Below are positions 1 through 40,755 of a DNA stretch of 64,000 nt, one piece after another (the first letter of the stretch is position 1; every line of letters begins with the position of its first letter). The position numbers and the translations under genes are program-made. Under the pieces are notes generated by a model. That model worked only from the letters and a program-made list of their open reading frames with translations. It had not been told where the DNA came from and did not search any database. The DNA lies in assembly GCF_000012865.1 (NCBI RefSeq), contig NC_007503.1, positions 186,001 to 250,000 of the forward strand, in the 5' to 3' direction. The DNA comes from Carboxydothermus hydrogenoformans Z-2901. GTDB lineage: Bacteria > Bacillota > Z-2901 > Carboxydothermales > Carboxydothermaceae.

Positions 1-1431
1 ACTTCCCACGTACTGACTGCTGCCCTGATAGTAGTTGGTTGGAGTAGGAGATTCCATAAAATAGCCGGTTTTATCCGGATGGCACAGTACGCAACTTTTC
101 ATATTGGGAAGCCGTTTTAAAGCCGAGGACCCGGTATTTTCATAGGCTTCCTCCGGTACTGTACCGGTTTTCAGCCAGTAATCCTGATCAACTCCGTGAG
201 CCGTATGGCAGGTAAGACAGTTTATTTTGGAAAAAGTTCCGGTAACCGGGTCGTATTCAAACTTGATGTTATAAACCGTGCTTAAAGTTGAAGCTAGCTC
301 CGGATAAACGGTGATATCTACCGGGTGGCGGTAATTTTCCGTAAAACTGTAAGTATTGCCTACCACCGTGGTATAGTACGAAGGGTGACAGGAGGCGCAA
401 AATTCCGAGATACCGCTTATATACGTTACTTTTTCCGGTTTGTCTGAAGCAATTGAAAGGTAATTTTCAATACCCATTACTACCCTGATAGCCGGTACAA
501 AATAAGCATAAAGCGGTACCGTTGGTGCATAAGTGAATTTAATCACTGTATAACCCCGGGAGTTATCAATGGTATAGTAAGAGGGGTCAATATATCCTTC
601 GTTGGAGCTAATTTTGGTAAGACGTTCGTATTCATAACCGGTAAGCCAGCGGTAAGGAGTATACGTCACCTCGCCTACCGAGTTAGCGGTAGCTCCGGGA
701 TACACCGTATACTCGGTACTGGAAATCTTCGCCATTAAAACCCCTTCTTTTTTATTTAAATAAGCCTGTCCGTTGGGGTTAGGGGATAAAAGCCGGGCAT
801 TTCCTCCGGCACCGTGAGGGTCATGACAGCTGGTACAGGTAAAAGGAATACTCCAGCGGTCGTTTATGCCATCGCCATTTAAATCGGCTTGGGCAGTGCT
901 GATATAGACTTCCCCTGGCACCGAAGAAACTTCGATAATACCCGAAACGTTATGAGCCGATAAAAATTCTTCTTTGCCACGGCCGAAAACCCCGCTATTG
1001 GTTAAAACATTACTGTTTTGGATTTTGCCGTCTAACACGTTGTAGGTAGTGGTAACGGTACCATCGTGGCAGGCCATACAGGTAGCGTAATCGGAATACC
1101 ACTGCAAGAGGCCCGGACCTACTGATGTATGAGTAGAGTGGCAGGAGGCGCAGCTATCGGTATTTTTGGTAAAATTGCTGTGGACCCTGTACAAGGCAGG
1201 GTTATTTTCATTGGGCAGATAGACTTCATAAGGGAAATTTGTAAGATCGTCCGGGTTAAAGGCAGAGACCATTCCATAGACATTGTTATAAACTTTTGTT
1301 TGAACTGGAAGGTAACTACCTTTTTGTTCGTTATTGCCATAAACTGGCAATAAGTTGGCTTGTACGTTATTTGGTATTAAAATTATTGATATGAAAATTA
1401 ATGATAAAATGTATAAAAAAGCTTTTTTCAT
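1..1431 (-). CDS. Exported multihaem c-type cytochrome (partial, C-terminus outside window)
   Basis: The frame is open from the ATG at 1431 to the left edge, giving 477 codons with no stop. AGGTGG lies six bases before the ATG. The N-terminus is a classical signal peptide (MKK, then a hydrophobic stretch, cleavage probably after VQA), so the protein is exported. Six CXXCH haem-binding motifs are in frame: CASCH and CMACH near 1140 and 1070, CTSCH near 830, CASCH near 395, CLTCH near 210 and CVLCH near 85. The spacing is wide, unlike the compact NapC type, so long beta-rich linkers probably separate the haems. It is divergent from the Wzy-like gene and shares a 150-base AT-rich spacer with it. 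It is likely an extracytoplasmic electron carrier or reductase. The substrate cannot be read from the visible part, and more haems may follow outside the window. Confidence 0.88.
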   Translation of the reverse strand, partial: MKKAFLYILSLIFISIILIPNNVQANLLPVYGNNEQKGSYLPVQTKVYNNVYGMVSAFNPDDLTNFPYEVYLPNENNPALYRVHSNFTKNTDSCASCHSTHTSVGPGLLQWYSDYATCMACHDGTVTTTYNVLDGKIQNSNVLTNSGVFGRGKEEFLSAHNVSGIIEVSSVPGEVYISTAQADLNGDGINDRWSIPFTCTSCHDPHGAGGNARLLSPNPNGQAYLNKKEGVLMAKISSTEYTVYPGATANSVGEVTYTPYRWLTGYEYERLTKISSNEGYIDPSYYTIDNSRGYTVIKFTYAPTVPLYAYFVPAIRVVMGIENYLSIASDKPEKVTYISGISEFCASCHPSYYTTVVGNTYSFTENYRHPVDITVYPELASTLSTVYNIKFEYDPVTGTFSKINCLTCHTAHGVDQDYWLKTGTVPEEAYENTGSSALKRLPNMKSCVLCHPDKTGYFMESPTPTNYYQGSSQYVGS

Positions 1432-1583
1432 GGGTGCCACCTATAAGTAAAATTGTTAATTTCTTAATAATTTCGCTAAAAAGATACAAAAATCCTTCTA
1501 ATTAAAAGTATTATTTTTTAAAGGTGCTATCTTTTGGCAGCAGGATTTTTCCTATGTTAAACGAATAGAAAATAAGGGAGGTA

Positions 1584-4371: not shown

Positions 4372-5724
4372 ATGAACGTAAGGGGACCAACAAATGGAGA
4401 AAGAGTGATAAAAATTATTTTAATTGTCAGCGGAGTATTTTTAACTATATTAATAATTGCTATAAGTTTAATTGAAGTTACCTCGCTTTCGATTACCTGT
4501 CAGGGTTGTCATGAAATGCGCCCGGAGTATTACACCTGGAAAGCTTCAACCCATAGCCAGGTTAACTGCTTAAAATGCCATGTGGAGCCGGGGATTGGGA
4601 ATTTATTTAGATTTAAGGGAAAAATGTTTAACTTTGCCTACCTCCATTTTACCAAAAAATATCTACTGCCAATAAGCCTCAAAAAAGACCTTCCTCAACG
4701 CAACTGCACCCGCTGTCACGGCTCAAAAAGAGCTATTACCCCGGCAGGTGACTTAATAGTTCCCCACGATAAACACAAGTCGGCCGGAGTTCAGTGTCTG
4801 GAATGTCATAAAGGAATTGCCCACGGAAACATACTGGACCGCCAGGAAACAATTGACGGAGATTTCAGCCGCTGGAATTTAACTTACGCCAGGTCCCAGA
4901 TGATACCGGAAAATGTAAAGACCAAAATGAGTTTGTGCATGAGCTGTCATGAACAAAGAAACGTGACCAGAAAGTGCGAAGCGTGTCACCGGCAAATACG
5001 GCCTCCCAAGGACCACCGGGCGTCGGACTGGCTCACCACCCACGGAAAACTTGCTCGCAAAAATTTAAAATATTGTGATTTGTGCCACTCTTATTCTAAT
5101 GTTGGTATTGAATATAATGAAAAAGATCCGGTGCGGGCTTATATTAAAGGAAACAGTTTTTGCTATGGCTGTCATTCCAAAAGGCCGGTAACCCATACGG
5201 TTGACTGGATATCCTCTCATGGCCTCTTAAGGACCAAAAACGATATTTCGGGATGCCTTACCTGTCACGACTGGGGCCAGCGTTCACCGATTCAAACCGC
5301 GGGACAGAGCATTATTGCCGGCGAGAGGCAAACGCTGCAGGTACCCGGTGGGCAGGTTTTGGGAGAAAAGAAAACTTACTGCATCCAATGTCACCGGGGT
5401 CAGCATAATAATTTCTTTGCATACCAGGTGCAAAATCACCCGGTAAATCTTCCGCCCGGTACAAAGCTGCAAGGATTTTGTTTTGGGTGTCATAATGTTC
5501 GCCAGTGTCAGCAGTGCCACAAAAATGCGGAAGCCCTATTTAAAGAATTCCAGGAAGGGAGAAATAAGGCTGGTACTTCTAAAAAGCTTTTAAACCCGCA
5601 CCAGAAATATTTTCAAAATGGTGCGCAAAACCACCCGGTACCTTTAAATGCCGGGACCAAACGGGATAGCAGTTGCTATCGCTGTCATAATCAAAAGTAT
5701 TGTACCGGTTGCCATAAAAATTAA
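4372..5724 (+). CDS. Membrane-anchored 14-haem c-type cytochrome, NapC/NirT-like N-terminus
   Basis: The protein has 450 residues. One hydrophobic helix at about residues 12-36 is followed at once by CQGCH and CLKCH in the arrangement of NapC/NirT/NrfH quinol dehydrogenases. Twelve more CXXCH motifs run to the C-terminus: CTRCH, CLECH, CMSCH, CEACH, CDLCH, CYGCH, CLTCH, CIQCH, CFGCH, CQQCH, CYRCH and CTGCH. The last is four residues from the end. AGGAGG precedes the ATG. Family knowledge suggests the first four haems take electrons from membrane quinol and the rest form an extracytoplasmic wire. The TPR and NHL genes follow with spacings of 16 and 12 bases, so the three form one operon. The terminal acceptor is not evident. 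Final repeats such as NHPVxLxxGT precede the CFGCH and CYRCH pairs, suggesting internal duplication. Confidence 0.92.
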   Translation: MNVRGPTNGERVIKIILIVSGVFLTILIIAISLIEVTSLSITCQGCHEMRPEYYTWKASTHSQVNCLKCHVEPGIGNLFRFKGKMFNFAYLHFTKKYLLPISLKKDLPQRNCTRCHGSKRAITPAGDLIVPHDKHKSAGVQCLECHKGIAHGNILDRQETIDGDFSRWNLTYARSQMIPENVKTKMSLCMSCHEQRNVTRKCEACHRQIRPPKDHRASDWLTTHGKLARKNLKYCDLCHSYSNVGIEYNEKDPVRAYIKGNSFCYGCHSKRPVTHTVDWISSHGLLRTKNDISGCLTCHDWGQRSPIQTAGQSIIAGERQTLQVPGGQVLGEKKTYCIQCHRGQHNNFFAYQVQNHPVNLPPGTKLQGFCFGCHNVRQCQQCHKNAEALFKEFQEGRNKAGTSKKLLNPHQKYFQNGAQNHPVPLNAGTKRDSSCYRCHNQKYCTGCHKN

Positions 5725-13651: not shown

Positions 13652-15406
13652 GTGATGAGGAGGAAGAGTTTAGTTATTTTGCTGCTGGCAGTGTTTGTAC
13701 TTTTATTTAGCGGTACTACCCTGGCTGCAGATCATTCGCAGGGCAAAGATTGTTTATCGTGTCACCAGAAATATGATCACTCCAGGCTGCAAAAGTACGA
13801 GGGATCAAAAAACTGTTTACCCTGCCATTCCGACCAGGTAAACGATGTTATCCACTCGGACCACTATACCTGGCAGAGCAAACCGGTAAACCTGATTGAT
13901 GCTGCCGGTAAGCCCTGGCCCGCCGATAAGCCGGTAGGGAAACTTGGGGGCTTAAACGATTTCTGCATTACCCCGGATATTAACTTCCTGGGAATTTTAG
14001 TTAATAAGAACGGGGCTAATGTCAAAGGTGGCTGTGGCCAGTGCCACGTAGGTATGGGTTCAAGGCCGGATAAAATTGATGAGGCAAAAGATAAGGAAAA
14101 CGTTGACTGTTTAATTTGCCATGCCGATTATTCGGTATACAACAGGAACCTGAAAACTATTGTGCAGGATGCATATGGTAACTTGTATTACATTCCTAAT
14201 ACCTCGGTAATTGATATTGCCTATGTGAAAAAAGCAAACGTTTCTGGAACGGTTGATATTACAGCAGCCCTAAAATCAATTAAGAAGACCCCCGATAATA
14301 AAAACTGCCTCCAGTGCCATGCTTTTGCTGGCGGTGGCCCCAACAACAAGCGGGGAGATTTAGAACCCATCCTGATGACCGAGCCTGCCAAAGTAGATGT
14401 TCATATGGGTAGTGGGATGAAATGTGTTGACTGCCATAAGACCGAAAACCACAAAATAGCCGGCCGTGGGGTAGATTTACGGACTAACGAATTAAATTAT
14501 AATGTACGGTGTGAAAATTGCCACTCTACTAAGGTCCATAAAGGTCCTCTGGGAGTGGCCTTGAACAATCACGTCAAGAGCATCGACTGCACTACCTGTC
14601 ACGTACCGGAATACGCAATTACCCAGTCTACTGATGTTTTCCGGGATTGGTCACAGGCGGAATACAATAGTGTAACCGCCCTCTATGAGCCCAAAATAGA
14701 ACGGGGACAAAATTTAAAGCCAGTATATCTCTGGTGGAATGGCCTTTCTTACGCCCAGCAAACTGATGTACCGGCGGTATTTAATAAAGATAACAAATAT
14801 GCTCCTAATAAAACAACTAAACCCGATTACGTAACTTTATTTGCACCGGTTGGCTCAATAAACGATCCCAAGGCCAAGATTTATCCCTTCCGCTACCACT
14901 ATGCTTATATGCCTATTGACCCGGTCACTGGTAAGTTCTTCCCGGCTAAAGCTGGTTACGTATTTATGACCGGCGATGTTTTGGGTGGATTTACTAAAGG
15001 CTATAAAGAATGGTTTGGCGTGGATTTGGTAAGTCCGGTTAAGTGGGTCTATGCCGAGCGGTACATGGGCTTGTATCATGAAGTGAAGCCCGCAAGTCAG
15101 GCGCTCTCCTGCACCAGCTGCCACAGTAACCGGGGAGTTCTTAACTGGAAAGCTTTAGGATATAAAGGCGATCCAATTATTTATGGTGCGAGAAAGGTTG
15201 TAACAACTCCGGCAGTTAAAACCTATACGGTAACCAAGACCACTTATCTCTACCAGACCGCATCTACCAAAGCCAAGAAACTAACCACACTGAAGGCTGG
15301 TACTAAAGTAACTTATGTAAGTGCTTCGGGCAACTACTATAAAGTCCAGGTAAAAGTTGGTTCCAAAACTTATACTGGCTATGTTTTAAAGTCTTATCTC
15401 AAGTAA
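13652..15406 (+). CDS. Exported nine-haem c-type cytochrome with C-terminal SH3-like domain
   Basis: The start is GTG 13652 or the adjacent ATG 13655, after AAGGAGAGGTG; 584 residues. A signal peptide ends near TLAADH (about residue 26). Nine CXXCH motifs follow: CLSCH, CLPCH, CGQCH, CLICH, CLQCH, CVDCH, CENCH, CTTCH, then after a gap of about 165 residues CTSCH near residue 488. The arrangement, including NDFC...GGCGQCHVGMG..P, recalls octahaem tetrathionate-reductase-family cytochromes, with one extra haem. The last 65 residues are a bacterial SH3-like domain (VTKTTYLYQTASTKAKKL to GYVLKSYLK), which in Firmicutes binds cell wall, so the protein may be held in the peptidoglycan. The substrate is unproven: tetrathionate, nitrogen oxides or simple electron relay are all possible. 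Confidence 0.88.
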   Translation: MMRRKSLVILLLAVFVLLFSGTTLAADHSQGKDCLSCHQKYDHSRLQKYEGSKNCLPCHSDQVNDVIHSDHYTWQSKPVNLIDAAGKPWPADKPVGKLGGLNDFCITPDINFLGILVNKNGANVKGGCGQCHVGMGSRPDKIDEAKDKENVDCLICHADYSVYNRNLKTIVQDAYGNLYYIPNTSVIDIAYVKKANVSGTVDITAALKSIKKTPDNKNCLQCHAFAGGGPNNKRGDLEPILMTEPAKVDVHMGSGMKCVDCHKTENHKIAGRGVDLRTNELNYNVRCENCHSTKVHKGPLGVALNNHVKSIDCTTCHVPEYAITQSTDVFRDWSQAEYNSVTALYEPKIERGQNLKPVYLWWNGLSYAQQTDVPAVFNKDNKYAPNKTTKPDYVTLFAPVGSINDPKAKIYPFRYHYAYMPIDPVTGKFFPAKAGYVFMTGDVLGGFTKGYKEWFGVDLVSPVKWVYAERYMGLYHEVKPASQALSCTSCHSNRGVLNWKALGYKGDPIIYGARKVVTTPAVKTYTVTKTTYLYQTASTKAKKLTTLKAGTKVTYVSASGNYYKVQVKVGSKTYTGYVLKSYLK

Positions 15407-15551: not shown

Positions 15552-16931
15552 GTGCAAAAAAGGCTTCTTTGGATAATAATAATTGCAGCGGCAATTATAG
15601 CGATAGCAGCTCCTTTTGCTATTCACGAAACCAGTAAGCCGACTTTTTGCAATACCTGCCACTCGATGAAACCTTACGTGGCAGCCTGGAAAGAATCAAA
15701 CCACGCAAGGGTTGATTGCATGGCCTGCCACCGAGACCCCGGTTTTGTGGGACTGATGAAAGTTAAGCTGGGTGGGCTTAAGCAGGTGGCGGTAGAGCTT
15801 ACTGAAAAGCCATCGCCAGATGAAATTAAAGGGAAGGCAGAGGTACCCAACAGGCGGTGCGAAGCCTGTCATAAGTTAGATCAGATTACTGTAAACGGGA
15901 CTTTTACCTTTAGCCATGAACTGCACGCCGGGAAAAAGGGATTAGCCTGTGTAACCTGTCATGGTGGTTTGGTTCATGGTACAGAGAAAAAATTAACCAT
16001 GCAGGATTGTATTGACTGTCATAAACAGAAAAATGGTCCCACCAGCTGTGAAAGTTGCCACCAGGATAAGGCGGCTATAAAGCCGCAAAACCATGATGCC
16101 AAGTGGCTGGCAGCTCATGGTACGGAAGCTAAAAAGGATCTGGCTGCCTGTACTACCTGTCATACCGGTGAATTGGGGCTGGAGAAGTACTGCAATACCT
16201 GCCACAAAGGCGTGACAATGCCGCATCCGGCGAACTGGCTTAAAAACCATAAGGTTTCGGATGTAACAGTTTGCAATACCTGCCATGCAAAACCGGTGGA
16301 AGGAGGCAAGGCCCAGACCTGTATTAGCTGTCACCAAGTAGAAATGCCGCACCCGGCAAACTGGACCAGTACCCATGGTAAGTTTACCCTGCAGAACAAA
16401 AACGTTAACTGCTACACCTGCCATACCAAAACCGAATGCAGCAGTTGCCACAAGATAGATATGCCCCATCCAGCGACGTGGCTTTCGACCCACGGAAAGA
16501 CTGCGCTGGCAAAAGGGACAAGTAGCTGTTACGGCTCCTGTCATACAAAAGCAACCTGTGACAGCTGCCATAAGGTACCGATGCCTCATAGCAGCAGCTT
16601 TAAGACAACCACTCACGGGGCAACGGCCTTGGCAAAAGGTAGTAGTACCTGTTATACCTGCCACAGCAAAAATGAGTGCACGACATGCCATGCAAACGTT
16701 AAAATTCATGATAGTGGATTCTTTGCCAAACACAGCAGTGAATATGCTAAAAATCCAGCAAAATGTAACACCTGTCACACCAACAAAACCACCTGCAACA
16801 GCTGTCACAGCAAAATTGGCCATACGGAAACCTGGATTACCAGACATGGTATAGCAGTAGGACAGTATGGTTCTGATTTATGTTCTACCTGCCATGACCG
16901 GGTTAAGTTCTGCAGTAGCTGCCATCGCTAA
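15552..16931 (+). CDS. Membrane-anchored cytochrome with 20 haem-binding sites, NapC/NirT-like N-terminus
   Basis: GTG start 15552 after GGGGGTGAG; 459 residues. A single anchor helix (about residues 4-24) is followed by CNTCHSMKPY and CMACH, the NapC/NrfH layout, for quinol oxidation. Nineteen canonical CXXCH motifs and one CX3CH (CYGSCH, about residue 326) follow, spaced every 15-25 residues. The C-terminal two thirds is built of repeats containing MPHPANW...HGK, then a paired CYTCH/CSSCH, indicating tandem duplication. The final CSSCH is one residue from the end. It resembles the 14-haem protein at 4372 but is longer and more repetitive. It probably works as a quinol-linked electron wire to surface acceptors. 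The next feature is a convergent terminator, so it is transcribed alone. Confidence 0.92.
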   Translation: MQKRLLWIIIIAAAIIAIAAPFAIHETSKPTFCNTCHSMKPYVAAWKESNHARVDCMACHRDPGFVGLMKVKLGGLKQVAVELTEKPSPDEIKGKAEVPNRRCEACHKLDQITVNGTFTFSHELHAGKKGLACVTCHGGLVHGTEKKLTMQDCIDCHKQKNGPTSCESCHQDKAAIKPQNHDAKWLAAHGTEAKKDLAACTTCHTGELGLEKYCNTCHKGVTMPHPANWLKNHKVSDVTVCNTCHAKPVEGGKAQTCISCHQVEMPHPANWTSTHGKFTLQNKNVNCYTCHTKTECSSCHKIDMPHPATWLSTHGKTALAKGTSSCYGSCHTKATCDSCHKVPMPHSSSFKTTTHGATALAKGSSTCYTCHSKNECTTCHANVKIHDSGFFAKHSSEYAKNPAKCNTCHTNKTTCNSCHSKIGHTETWITRHGIAVGQYGSDLCSTCHDRVKFCSSCHR

Positions 16932-22293: not shown

Positions 22294-22458
22294 TCACAAA
22301 AAGTAATTTCTTAGCTTATCTCTTAATTCATTTGTGATTTGAAAAGCGCGGGTTACCAGGGTTTCGGCATCGAGGCCAGGCTCATCAGGAATAGCTCTCA
22401 AGAGTAAGTATTCTCTAAAGAAAATAAAGGAATAATAAAAGAAAGAAAGGGGGATAAG
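22294..22458 (-). pseudogene. Possible C-terminal gene remnant
   Basis: The minus strand reads open through this stretch to a TGA at 22296-22294. The last 35 or so codons (LLRAIPDEPGLDAETLV, then an amphipathic helix to RDKLRNYFL) have coding-like composition and are more GC-rich than the surrounding spacer. There is no start codon with a ribosome site, and a stop closes the frame upstream. It may be the tail of a lost gene. I do not recognise the family. Confidence 0.3.
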
Positions 22459-22872
22459 ATGAAGGGATTATTTTACCTGAGTGTTGCAGTATTACTAATT
22501 TATGGCCTAATGTTTTTGGTAGGGTTGAAGCCGGTTCATGCTTATTTTGATAGCCCTGAATTTTGTTCTACCTGCCACGTAATGAAAAAGGAGTACCAGG
22601 GATATTTAAAAAAACCACATGCAGGAAAAGTAAGCTGTGGGGGATGTCATTTACCGGCGGGATTTCCCCGTTACGGGATTGAAAAAACTTATTCGGGAAT
22701 CAGAGATTTTCTTTCTTTTTCCTTCCGTACCTATCCCGATGTAATAAAAATTTCCTCCCGCTCGCAAAAAATTGTGGAGGAAAACTGTCTTCGCTGTCAT
22801 CAGGGGGTCACGGAAAAGCTTTTGGGGGTGTCCCAGCGGTGCACCTTTTGTCACCGGCAGGTATTTCACTGA
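22459..22872 (+). CDS. nrfH: NrfH-type tetrahaem cytochrome, quinol dehydrogenase subunit
   Basis: The protein has 137 residues. AAAGGGGG precedes the ATG. An N-terminal anchor helix (about residues 3-22) is followed by CSTCHVMKKEY, CGGCH, CLRCH and CTFCH: four haems, with the methionine three residues after the first histidine typical of NrfH haem 1. It takes electrons from menaquinol and feeds NrfA on the outer membrane face. It is the first gene of the nrfHA pair, 22 bases ahead of nrfA. Confidence 0.94.
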   Translation: MKGLFYLSVAVLLIYGLMFLVGLKPVHAYFDSPEFCSTCHVMKKEYQGYLKKPHAGKVSCGGCHLPAGFPRYGIEKTYSGIRDFLSFSFRTYPDVIKISSRSQKIVEENCLRCHQGVTEKLLGVSQRCTFCHRQVFH

Positions 22873-22894
22873 AAACTGTTAGGAGGGGATAATT

Positions 22895-24160
22895 TTGACC
22901 CGCGGTATAACAATTGGAATTATTATAGTTGCTCTAACTTTGCTTGCGGGAACTTTTGTGGCCTACATTACTGCCAAAAACGATGTTCCCTATAGAACTT
23001 TGACAACCGGTTTTAAGAAAGATGAGATTAAACCCGAAAAGTACGGCCAAAAATTTCCGGTTGAATATAAGTATTACTTAAAAAATAAAGAAATGGCTCT
23101 GGCTCCCAGTAAGTACGGAGGCTCGGTAAAAAGAGACCACCTCAAGGAATTTCCTTATATGAAAACCTTATGGGCGGGCTTTGCCTTCAGTAAAGACTAT
23201 ACTGAAGATCGGGGTCATGTTTATGCTCTGGAAGATGTTAAGGAAACCAAAAGGATTTCCGAAAAAACCGCCTTAGCCTGTATGACCTGTAAATCTTCCC
23301 AGGTACCGGTTTATATGGACAAATGGGGAGTAGATAACTTTTATAAAGCCAGATTTAGAGAAAAACAAAATCTTTTTACGATACCGATTGGCTGTTATGA
23401 CTGTCATGATGCTCAGACCATGAAGTTACGCATTACCCGGCCGGCGTTAAAAGATGCGTTAAAACGAATTGGCCGGGATCCGGAGAAATTTACGGAGAAA
23501 GAACTTAAGAATTATATCTGCGCCCAGTGTCATGTAACTTATTATATTGACAAGGCAACAAACCGGGTAATCTTTCCCTGGGATGGGGGAGTAGATCCGG
23601 AAGATATGTACCGGCATTATGAAAAAAGAAATTTTTATGAATGGGTACATCCTTTAAGCGGCACTAAAATGCTGAAATCCCGCCATCCGGAGTTTGAAAT
23701 GTTTTCGGGAAGCGTGCACAGTGCGGTGGGGCTTACCTGCGTTGATTGTCATATGCCGTACGTCTATGAAGGCGGCAAAAAATATTCCAGCCACTGGTGG
23801 ACTTCTCCGTTAAGAACTTTAGAGCAGTCCTGCCGCAAGTGCCACCGGGAAGAGGAGGCTAAGCTTAGAGAGCGGGTCTTTTACATCCAGGACCGAACTT
23901 ATGACTTATTAAACCGGGCGGGGAAAGCCAATGAAGAAGCAATTAAAGCTATAAATGAAGCAGTATATTCTCCGGGGGCAGATAAAGCTTTAATTGAAAA
24001 GGCGCGGAAGCTTCACCGGGAGGCCCAGTGGTACTGGGATTATGTCAGCAGCGAAAACTCTATGGGCTTTCATAACCCGGAAAAAGCCCTGACTACGCTG
24101 GGTAAATCCATCGACCTTGCCCTTAGAGCCAAAGCTACCGCCCTCCAGGCCAAAAAGTAA
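22895..24160 (+). CDS. nrfA: Cytochrome c nitrite reductase, ammonia-forming
   Basis: TTG start 22895, after AGGAGGGG; 421 residues. An N-terminal signal/anchor helix is present. The active-site haem motif CMTCK (about residue 129) with lysine as the ligand, followed by SSQVP, is diagnostic. Four normal haem motifs follow: CYDCH, CAQCH, CVDCH and CRKCH. The enzyme reduces nitrite to ammonium with six electrons delivered by NrfH, outside the cell membrane. The length is slightly below proteobacterial NrfA (about 450). A long palindromic repeat immediately after the stop may terminate the transcript. Confidence 0.95.
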   Translation: MTRGITIGIIIVALTLLAGTFVAYITAKNDVPYRTLTTGFKKDEIKPEKYGQKFPVEYKYYLKNKEMALAPSKYGGSVKRDHLKEFPYMKTLWAGFAFSKDYTEDRGHVYALEDVKETKRISEKTALACMTCKSSQVPVYMDKWGVDNFYKARFREKQNLFTIPIGCYDCHDAQTMKLRITRPALKDALKRIGRDPEKFTEKELKNYICAQCHVTYYIDKATNRVIFPWDGGVDPEDMYRHYEKRNFYEWVHPLSGTKMLKSRHPEFEMFSGSVHSAVGLTCVDCHMPYVYEGGKKYSSHWWTSPLRTLEQSCRKCHREEEAKLRERVFYIQDRTYDLLNRAGKANEEAIKAINEAVYSPGADKALIEKARKLHREAQWYWDYVSSENSMGFHNPEKALTTLGKSIDLALRAKATALQAKK

Positions 24161-38686: not shown

Positions 38687-40714
38687 CTATTGTTTGGGGA
38701 TTTGCTTGAGATACTCTTCTGCTTTGTTCAAAAGGAGTTCAGTTAAAGCGGTGTTGTGGATACCGTGAGAAGCGTCGGCGGATACAATGCCTGCTAAAGT
38801 ATCAGCATATTTGTAATTTGGATCGTTGTAAGCTGCTGCGTAGGTGGTTTTTAGCTGGTTAAGAATGTTGTTAACACGAGTATCGACTTTATCGGTCCAG
38901 GCTTTTACGGCGTTTGCATCAAAGCCAACAGCATCGTGACAGACACTGCAGCTGTTGTAAGAAGCTTTGTAATTATTCCGGTAGTTGCCTAAATCAGGAT
39001 TGTTTTTAACAGTAACGTTTTCAATGGTGATGGTTGGTTTTCCTGCTTTAAAGTAGTGATAGCCATTGGGCATGTGGCAGGTTACGCATTCGGCACTGCC
39101 CATTGGGTTATAAACTTTTTCCGGTATACCTAAAGCAGTGAAGGAAGCACCGAGCTGTCCGGTAAATACTTCTTTTTGTGGATGATGTACTCCTTTGCTG
39201 CCAGAGGTAGCGGTGAAGCCTTCACCGGTGTGGCACTCCATGCAAAGTTCGTTGGGTTCATTTCTTAATTGCTTGCCGTAGCCTTTTTCGCTGTGCGGAC
39301 TGTGGCAGGTGACACAGGTAATGCCTAACTTAAAGTCACTGAGTTTTACAGTTGCATTAAAGTCAGCTGCAGTTTTACCCGGGTTAGCCTTTAAGTAATC
39401 TTCCAAAGCAGTGCGGTAATCCTGGGAGTGGCACTCCAAGCAGCTGACACTGCCGTGGGAATTTTGCTGAATTGTTTGTAAGGAAATGCCATGCTTACCA
39501 TAAACAGTTCCACTTACGCCGGCAATTGCGTATTCATCGTTGTATTCGCCGCCACGGTGGTGCGCACCTTCGTGGCACTTTTCGCAGGTAGCGCTGGCAG
39601 CAATACCGTCTTTTTCACCAAGAATCTTGGTAGGATCACCGGTTGCAGCGTGGAGAGCACCAGGACCATGGCAAGCTTCACAGCCGATACCCGGTTCGGT
39701 AAATAATTCTTTATAGGTATTTCCAACTACAGAGTAGGGAGTACCGGTAATACCATTCGGTCCAGGATAACCGGTGACGTGGCACTTAGCACAGCTTACC
39801 AGCCAGTTCTGGGTGTGGGAATCAGCTACCCACTGATTTTCGGTCTTATCAAAAGCATACGGCATGTATTTGTAATCCTTGCCTACAAATAGCAATTCTG
39901 TAGGCGAGTTAATTACATACCGAACATCGCTGGCCTGGAACTTATCGTTCAAGGACCAGAGCAGCATGGAACCAAAGAAATCGGGTGTTTTTACCATATT
40001 GGGGTGCCAGGTTGCCGAAAACTTGGAGAAGCCATGGCAGCTCTGACATTTCTTGGTGCCAGCATATGCAGTTGGAGCCGGTAATACTCTTGGATATTTT
40101 GCTTGAACTGCGTTAAATGCTTTGACTACTTCGGTGCGGCTTGCAGCAGCTGTTGGATCAAGGTAAAGCTTGCTTCCAGCTTTCCGGGCGCTTAAATAGC
40201 CTTTCTTTACGGCCCAGACTAAGGCTTTTTGGTTGGCAGAAGCTGCTTTGGTGTAGTCGGCATATTTTTTAAGGTCGTTAGCGGTAACTTTAGCAACTTC
40301 ACCTTGGGCTTTTAAAGCTACCATCAAGAAGTAAGCGAGTCTTTGCTTGGTGATGTTTCCGGAAACCTTGCCAAAGGCTGACTCGGAAAGTCCGGAAACC
40401 CTGGCAAATTCCTTAACCACGTTGGCTTCGGTGAGCGGGTCATAATTTAAGTCTACGGCTAATTTCTTGCCGTTTTGCATGAACAGGACGCCCCGCTCGG
40501 TCAAGGGAATTTGGGCAGTGCTGGTTGGCGCTGCGTGGCAGATGGAACAACTTTTAGCATCCTTGTGGAATGCCAGCGTTCCTTGTGTGGGTACCTGGTG
40601 GCAATAACTGCAGGGCTTCCCTGTATCTTTGGCGTACTGATCAGTAGCCAATACCGGACTGGCTACTAACAGGAGAAGAACTGCAGCAACCAGTACCCAT
40701 AGACCTTTACGCAT
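38687..40714 (-). CDS. S-layer-anchored 11-haem c-type cytochrome
   Basis: AAGGAGGGG precedes the ATG at 40714; 675 residues. A signal peptide (MRKGLWVLVAAVLLLLVASP...LAT) is followed by CSYCH and CSICH, then about 150 residues resembling S-layer-homology repeats (ITKQRLAYFLMVAL, then KYADYTKAASANQKALVWAV and LDPTAAASRTEVVKAFNAV). Nine more CXXCH motifs follow: CQSCH, CAKCH, CEACH, CEKCH, CLECH, CVTCH, CMECH, CVTCH and CSVCH. SLH domains bind cell-wall polymers, so the haem wire should sit in the outer wall layer. A role in extracellular electron transfer is inferred. It is monocistronic, with its own promoter upstream. Confidence 0.9.
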   Translation of the reverse strand: MRKGLWVLVAAVLLLLVASPVLATDQYAKDTGKPCSYCHQVPTQGTLAFHKDAKSCSICHAAPTSTAQIPLTERGVLFMQNGKKLAVDLNYDPLTEANVVKEFARVSGLSESAFGKVSGNITKQRLAYFLMVALKAQGEVAKVTANDLKKYADYTKAASANQKALVWAVKKGYLSARKAGSKLYLDPTAAASRTEVVKAFNAVQAKYPRVLPAPTAYAGTKKCQSCHGFSKFSATWHPNMVKTPDFFGSMLLWSLNDKFQASDVRYVINSPTELLFVGKDYKYMPYAFDKTENQWVADSHTQNWLVSCAKCHVTGYPGPNGITGTPYSVVGNTYKELFTEPGIGCEACHGPGALHAATGDPTKILGEKDGIAASATCEKCHEGAHHRGGEYNDEYAIAGVSGTVYGKHGISLQTIQQNSHGSVSCLECHSQDYRTALEDYLKANPGKTAADFNATVKLSDFKLGITCVTCHSPHSEKGYGKQLRNEPNELCMECHTGEGFTATSGSKGVHHPQKEVFTGQLGASFTALGIPEKVYNPMGSAECVTCHMPNGYHYFKAGKPTITIENVTVKNNPDLGNYRNNYKASYNSCSVCHDAVGFDANAVKAWTDKVDTRVNNILNQLKTTYAAAYNDPNYKYADTLAGIVSADASHGIHNTALTELLLNKAEEYLKQIPKQ

Positions 40715-40755
40715 AAAACCCCTCCTTTTAAAAATTTTTTTGGTTATAAAATCTG

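Follow-up and report, generated by a model that had tools for sequence, protein, structure and literature searches.

A putative S-layer docking module joined to an OcwA-type nonahaem core in the OmhA orthologue of Carboxydothermus hydrogenoformans

Results

A predicted OmhA orthologue with a two-part layout

How electrons pass through the thick Gram-positive envelope and the surface layer (S-layer) is still poorly understood, and the main structural example of an S-layer-seated cytochrome is OmhA. The open reading frame (ORF) at 38687-40714 of the window, that is, of the whole 64,000-nucleotide stretch of Carboxydothermus hydrogenoformans Z-2901 DNA analysed here, is by sequence an orthologue of this surface cytochrome, predicted to deliver electrons to extracellular minerals, and the locus adds a second species to OmhA. 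The best explanation of the gene, and a highly probable one, is that an N-terminal module of two haems and a degenerate S-layer homology (SLH) domain docks in the S-layer and is joined to a complete OcwA-type nonahaem core, which would carry electrons and reduce the acceptor. The protein, its structure and its layout are already published for OmhA; the observation is correct and not new. The part worth following is the docking part, which the sequences suggest to be a reusable module that has lost the classical ligand pocket, and such a module is open to simple binding assays.

Identity of the ORF was assigned from its closest solved structure, 6qvm_A, which phmmer aligned over residues 1-675 against 1-681 (E=0, score 1474.6). 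This entry is OmhA of Carboxydothermus ferrireducens, an 11-haem protein with a redox window of -400 to +150 mV (PMC7829351). The second structure match, OcwA (6i5b_A, E=1.3e-34), aligned only from residue 213 onward. The 675-amino-acid (aa) ORF contained 11 CXXCH motifs, the first four at residues 35, 56, 223 and 308, and a haem-free stretch of ~153 residues (63-215) had two motifs before it and nine after it, bearing out the arrangement of two N-terminal and nine further haems given in a first-pass annotation of this DNA. The full-length homology to 6QVM and the two plus nine motifs around an S-layer-type domain establish orthology and haem count in the present analysis. The two orthologues share the 11 haems and the haem-free domain between haems 2 and 3, but differ in a ~25-residue cassette around haem 2, where this protein carries the other allele and the C. 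ferrireducens version resembles that of C. islandicus, and in a few changes around residues 555-580.

Papers on the orthologue supply the surface location, the up-regulation on ferrihydrite, the redox window and the crystal structure, all of which would apply here by analogy. C. ferrireducens possesses an S-layer, and its OmhA was the most abundant cytochrome, increased on ferrihydrite, and was the sole cytochrome sheared off cells or washed from biogenic magnetite, from which the authors concluded a weak attachment to the cell surface (PMC7829351). Behaviour of this close orthologue agrees with the cell-surface location proposed in the first-pass annotation. That annotation had also presented an internal SLH position as a noteworthy new layout, a claim that fails because the orthologue has already been published in a crystal structure paper (6QVM; Tikhonova et al. 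2023, Structure 31:174) whose title names an S-layer insertion.

The haem-free stretch is a degenerate SLH triplet

About 150 residues between haems 2 and 3 had been read as SLH repeats at first pass, with a PF00395 profile search proposed as the check. This search gave no match at E<=1 in the 675-aa protein, so that Pfam detection was not reached, and cytochrome families were the only ones that the Pfam scan placed above cut-off. Over the whole genome (one contig of 2,401,520 bases), PF00395 had no match above cut-off and a single sub-cut-off match, located in a different cytochrome. A triple-SLH profile built from eight canonical SLH triplets of other genera and searched in six frames had its sole match at E<=1 in the whole genome at 40112-40411 (E=4.8e-4). 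In HHalign comparisons with 25 canonical SLH triplets, the OmhA sequence alone scored 43.3 (91.4%), the maximum of 100 column shuffles being 20.4, and OmhA together with an 847-aa paralogue scored 75.0 (97.6%), with a shuffle maximum of 21.7; the highest score among 64 real protein segments from the window was 18.3. A likeness due to the paralogue rows only was ruled out by the score of OmhA alone relative to its null maximum. Furthermore, a reverse search with a profile composed solely of Carboxydothermus domain sequences led to SLH proteins of other genomes; each of the eight top outgroup places examined sat in a protein with canonical SLH repeats. The alignment spanned three repeats, of which repeat 2 was strongly shortened, with its first helix nearly gone, and repeat 3 was nearly complete. 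A hidden Markov model of a single repeat gave too weak a signal on the cytochromes by itself, and the domain profile searched against solved structures found no SLH chain, only 6qvm and chance matches.

These profile comparisons mark residues 63-215 as a real, though degenerate, homologue of the SLH triplet lying below Pfam detection, and the SLH homology is counted among the established results. It is exceedingly improbable that the stretch has nothing to do with SLH and owes its likeness to composition or chance: the empty PF00395 search and the absence of an SLH chain among the structure matches would fit that explanation, but it is already contradicted here by the sole genome-wide match of the triple-SLH profile, the reverse search reaching canonical SLH proteins and the far lower scores of the controls. 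Compared with canonical SLH triplets (Sap, SpaA; PF00395), the OmhA domain is a homologous three-repeat domain that differs in having lost most ligand residues and in its internal position beside haems.

A recurrent haem-SLH module fused to a complete cytochrome

The modular boundary was established from homologues of the core. Each of the homologues L037-L039 from other Firmicutes is a whole secreted nonahaem protein that corresponds to OmhA residues 201-675, and alignments of free-standing nonahaem homologues to OmhA begin at 201-215. OcwA of Thermincola potens (6I5B) likewise has a nonahaem core homologous to residues 213-670, but its alignment lacks a counterpart of residues 1-212, so it has no haem-SLH module. 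Because complete nonahaem homologues occur without the N-terminal module, OmhA is better read from these alignments as a haem-SLH module fused ahead of a complete OcwA-type core, not as a cytochrome into which SLH repeats were inserted, as the first-pass annotation had it.

The module was found in other proteins as well. In the 847-aa cytochrome it follows haem 1 (SLH E=0.0011, slightly under the cut-off); from gene size and order, the run of cytochrome genes holding this paralogue probably corresponds to the pilin-cytochrome cluster of PMC7829351. A SmhC-like 7-haem ORF of C. islandicus (L031, a 72% relative) carries the module too (HHalign 96.5%). In the same genome as omhA, L113:1222-1890 (+) (C1:521.4-522.1 kb) encodes a 222-aa secreted protein with one haem, an SLH-like domain and little else (HHalign 93.2%); it adjoins a 20-haem cytochrome and a ferredoxin-type protein. 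Two Firmicute nonahaem cytochromes (L041:2728-4887 (-) and L042:2583-4499 (+)) share with OmhA haem 1, a non-haem domain and a homologous nonahaem core, whereas their slot between haem 1 and the core holds Cu_amine_oxidN1 (PF07833; E=7.9e-21 and 7.4e-10) where that of OmhA holds SLH. The plasmid collection yielded distant core matches only. The engineering idea of building an S-layer domain into a multihaem cytochrome and placing a haem in the S-layer plane is shared with the S-layer cytochromes MHC-A/B of anaerobic methanotrophic (ANME) archaea (PMC9012536), but those proteins are unrelated and much larger.

It may tentatively be proposed, at somewhat less than even probability, that the SLH domains of Carboxydothermus have been almost wholly taken over by respiration. 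A mobile module of signal peptide, one or two haems and a degenerate SLH triplet would then act as an electrically wired S-layer plug, set on at least three multihaem cores (OmhA, the SmhC-like 7-haem protein and the 847-aa cytochrome) and also occurring alone with one haem, and would dock without pyruvylated wall polymer.

The ligand pocket is mostly lost

SpaA uses Arg43 of the TRAE motif, Gly29 of the GIIxG motif and Trp13 to hold the pyruvylated sugar (PMC6081394). Among the canonical repeats collected, the arginine was kept in 76 of 78, the glycine in 71 of 77 and the tryptophan in 71 of 76. By alignment, the TRAE sites of OmhA read TEAN, TKQR and SRTE, leaving the arginine in one of three repeats; neither the GIIxG glycine nor the ligand-stacking tryptophan was matched in any of the three, and repeat 3 has GYLSA in place of GIIxG. 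Furthermore, no CsaB (TIGR03609) was found in three Carboxydothermus genomes at E<=0.001, and no PF04230 pyruvyl transferase in this genome at E<=0.1; both searches detected their family in control genomes, and among the 18 further genomes searched, 14 had a match to TIGR03609.

Since the pocket residues are mostly lost and neither CsaB nor PF04230 was found, a wall-polymer mechanism is doubtful, and the statement of the first-pass annotation that SLH domains bind wall polymers is unsupported for this copy. A classical SLH anchor, which like those of Sap or SpaA would bind pyruvylated secondary cell-wall polymer and hold the protein to the wall, is accordingly unlikely. It would draw on the genuine SLH homology across three repeats, on the arginine kept in repeat 3 (with VTRAE in the paralogue) and on the ability of SpaA to function with unequal repeats (PMC6081394), but the replacement of two of three arginines, the unmatched glycine and tryptophan, the missing enzyme families and the easy shearing of OmhA (PMC7829351) argue against it. 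For the same two reasons, pocket and enzymes, docking to an S-layer protein or to an unmodified (unpyruvylated) polymer is favoured over the classical pocket, and weak docking to an S-layer protein, matching the shear-off reported for C. ferrireducens OmhA, would fit better than a wall polymer.

Still less probable is that the domain is an SLH fossil, an internal scaffold or spacer that sets haems 1-2 against the nonahaem core and docks to nothing. The strong erosion of the ligand residues and the near absence of the first helix from repeat 2 would suit such a relic. However, the domain is conserved above the core (94% versus 67.5% aa identity in the genome pair G000/G001, part of which may reflect recombination), it turns up again in front of different cores and, almost free-standing, as a protein of its own, and the published structure paper, by its title, takes it as an S-layer insertion.

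In the preferred reading, the degenerate three-repeat domain would dock the protein in the S-layer, the partner probably being the S-layer protein itself or an unpyruvylated polymer, haems 1-2 may help electrons to enter or leave at the S-layer, and the nonahaem core would carry electrons and reduce the acceptor. Several points weigh against this picture. Cell-surface location and Fe(III) reduction have been demonstrated for the C. ferrireducens orthologue only; the single TRAE-type arginine left in repeat 3 (SRTE) may still permit some polymer binding; the absent CsaB-family match leaves room for an unrelated pyruvylating enzyme; and an AlphaFold model of the isolated domain, made without an alignment, was uninformative (mean predicted local distance difference test score, pLDDT, of 49) and was left unused for fold search.

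Divergence and recombination within the gene

In G000/G001, changed fourfold sites numbered 4 of 38 in the SLH half that adjoins haem 2 versus 69 of 127 in the nonahaem core (Fisher p=7e-7), and the other two species pairs agreed. This low divergence, located in the SLH domain's N-terminal half (window 40295-40528 (-)), suggests either that the segment has been exchanged between members of the genus or that the DNA itself is under constraint. The alleles of the haem-2 cassette group this species with G002 versus C. ferrireducens with C. islandicus and do not follow overall relatedness; such crossing of species lines suggests recombination within the gene.

Features of the locus and further cytochromes

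Table 1 Features of the omhA locus (positions in the window)
Feature	Position	Strand	Basis
omhA orthologue, predicted 675-aa secreted undecahaem cytochrome c	38687..40714	-	ORF; phmmer to 6qvm_A, residues 1-675, E=0
Ribosome-binding site AGGAGGGG, upstream of ATG at 40714	40719..40726	-	sequence
Signal peptide, residues 1-23 (MRKGLWVLVAAVLLLLVASPVLA)	40646..40714	-	sequence; orthologue predicted secreted (PMC7829351)
Haem 1 motif CSYCH, residues 35-39	40598..40612	-	sequence
Haem-2 cassette, residues 42-62, CSICH at 56-60; two alleles in genus	40529..40591	-	sequence comparison
Degenerate three-repeat SLH domain, residues 63-215; putative S-layer docking domain	40070..40528	-	triple-SLH profile; HHalign with controls
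OcwA-type nonahaem core, residues 216-675, haems 3-11	38690..40069	-	6i5b_A alignment; free-standing nonahaem homologues

The gene is flanked on the opposite strand by uvrA-like and hydantoinase-like genes, named by sequence reading. More multihaem cytochromes were read from the window sequence: one at 1-1440 (-) with 6 CXXCH motifs, and others at 4372-5724, 13652-15406, 15552-16931 and 22408-24160 (+) with 14, 9, 19 and 4+4 motifs, respectively. The cytochrome at 13652-15406 appears to end in an SH3-like domain, and the pair at 22408-24160 resembles NrfHA.

In two C. islandicus cytochromes of the 847-aa type, L096:574-2751 (-) and L097:1496-3382 (-), an in-frame TGA stands at the position of a Cys in the paralogue (GMFNRV*GPPHAV versus MYNRLCGAPETF). 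A short stem-loop follows the TGA (CAGTTGC-CGTGA-GCAACTG in L097), and the products of both genes are probably selenocysteine multihaem cytochromes.
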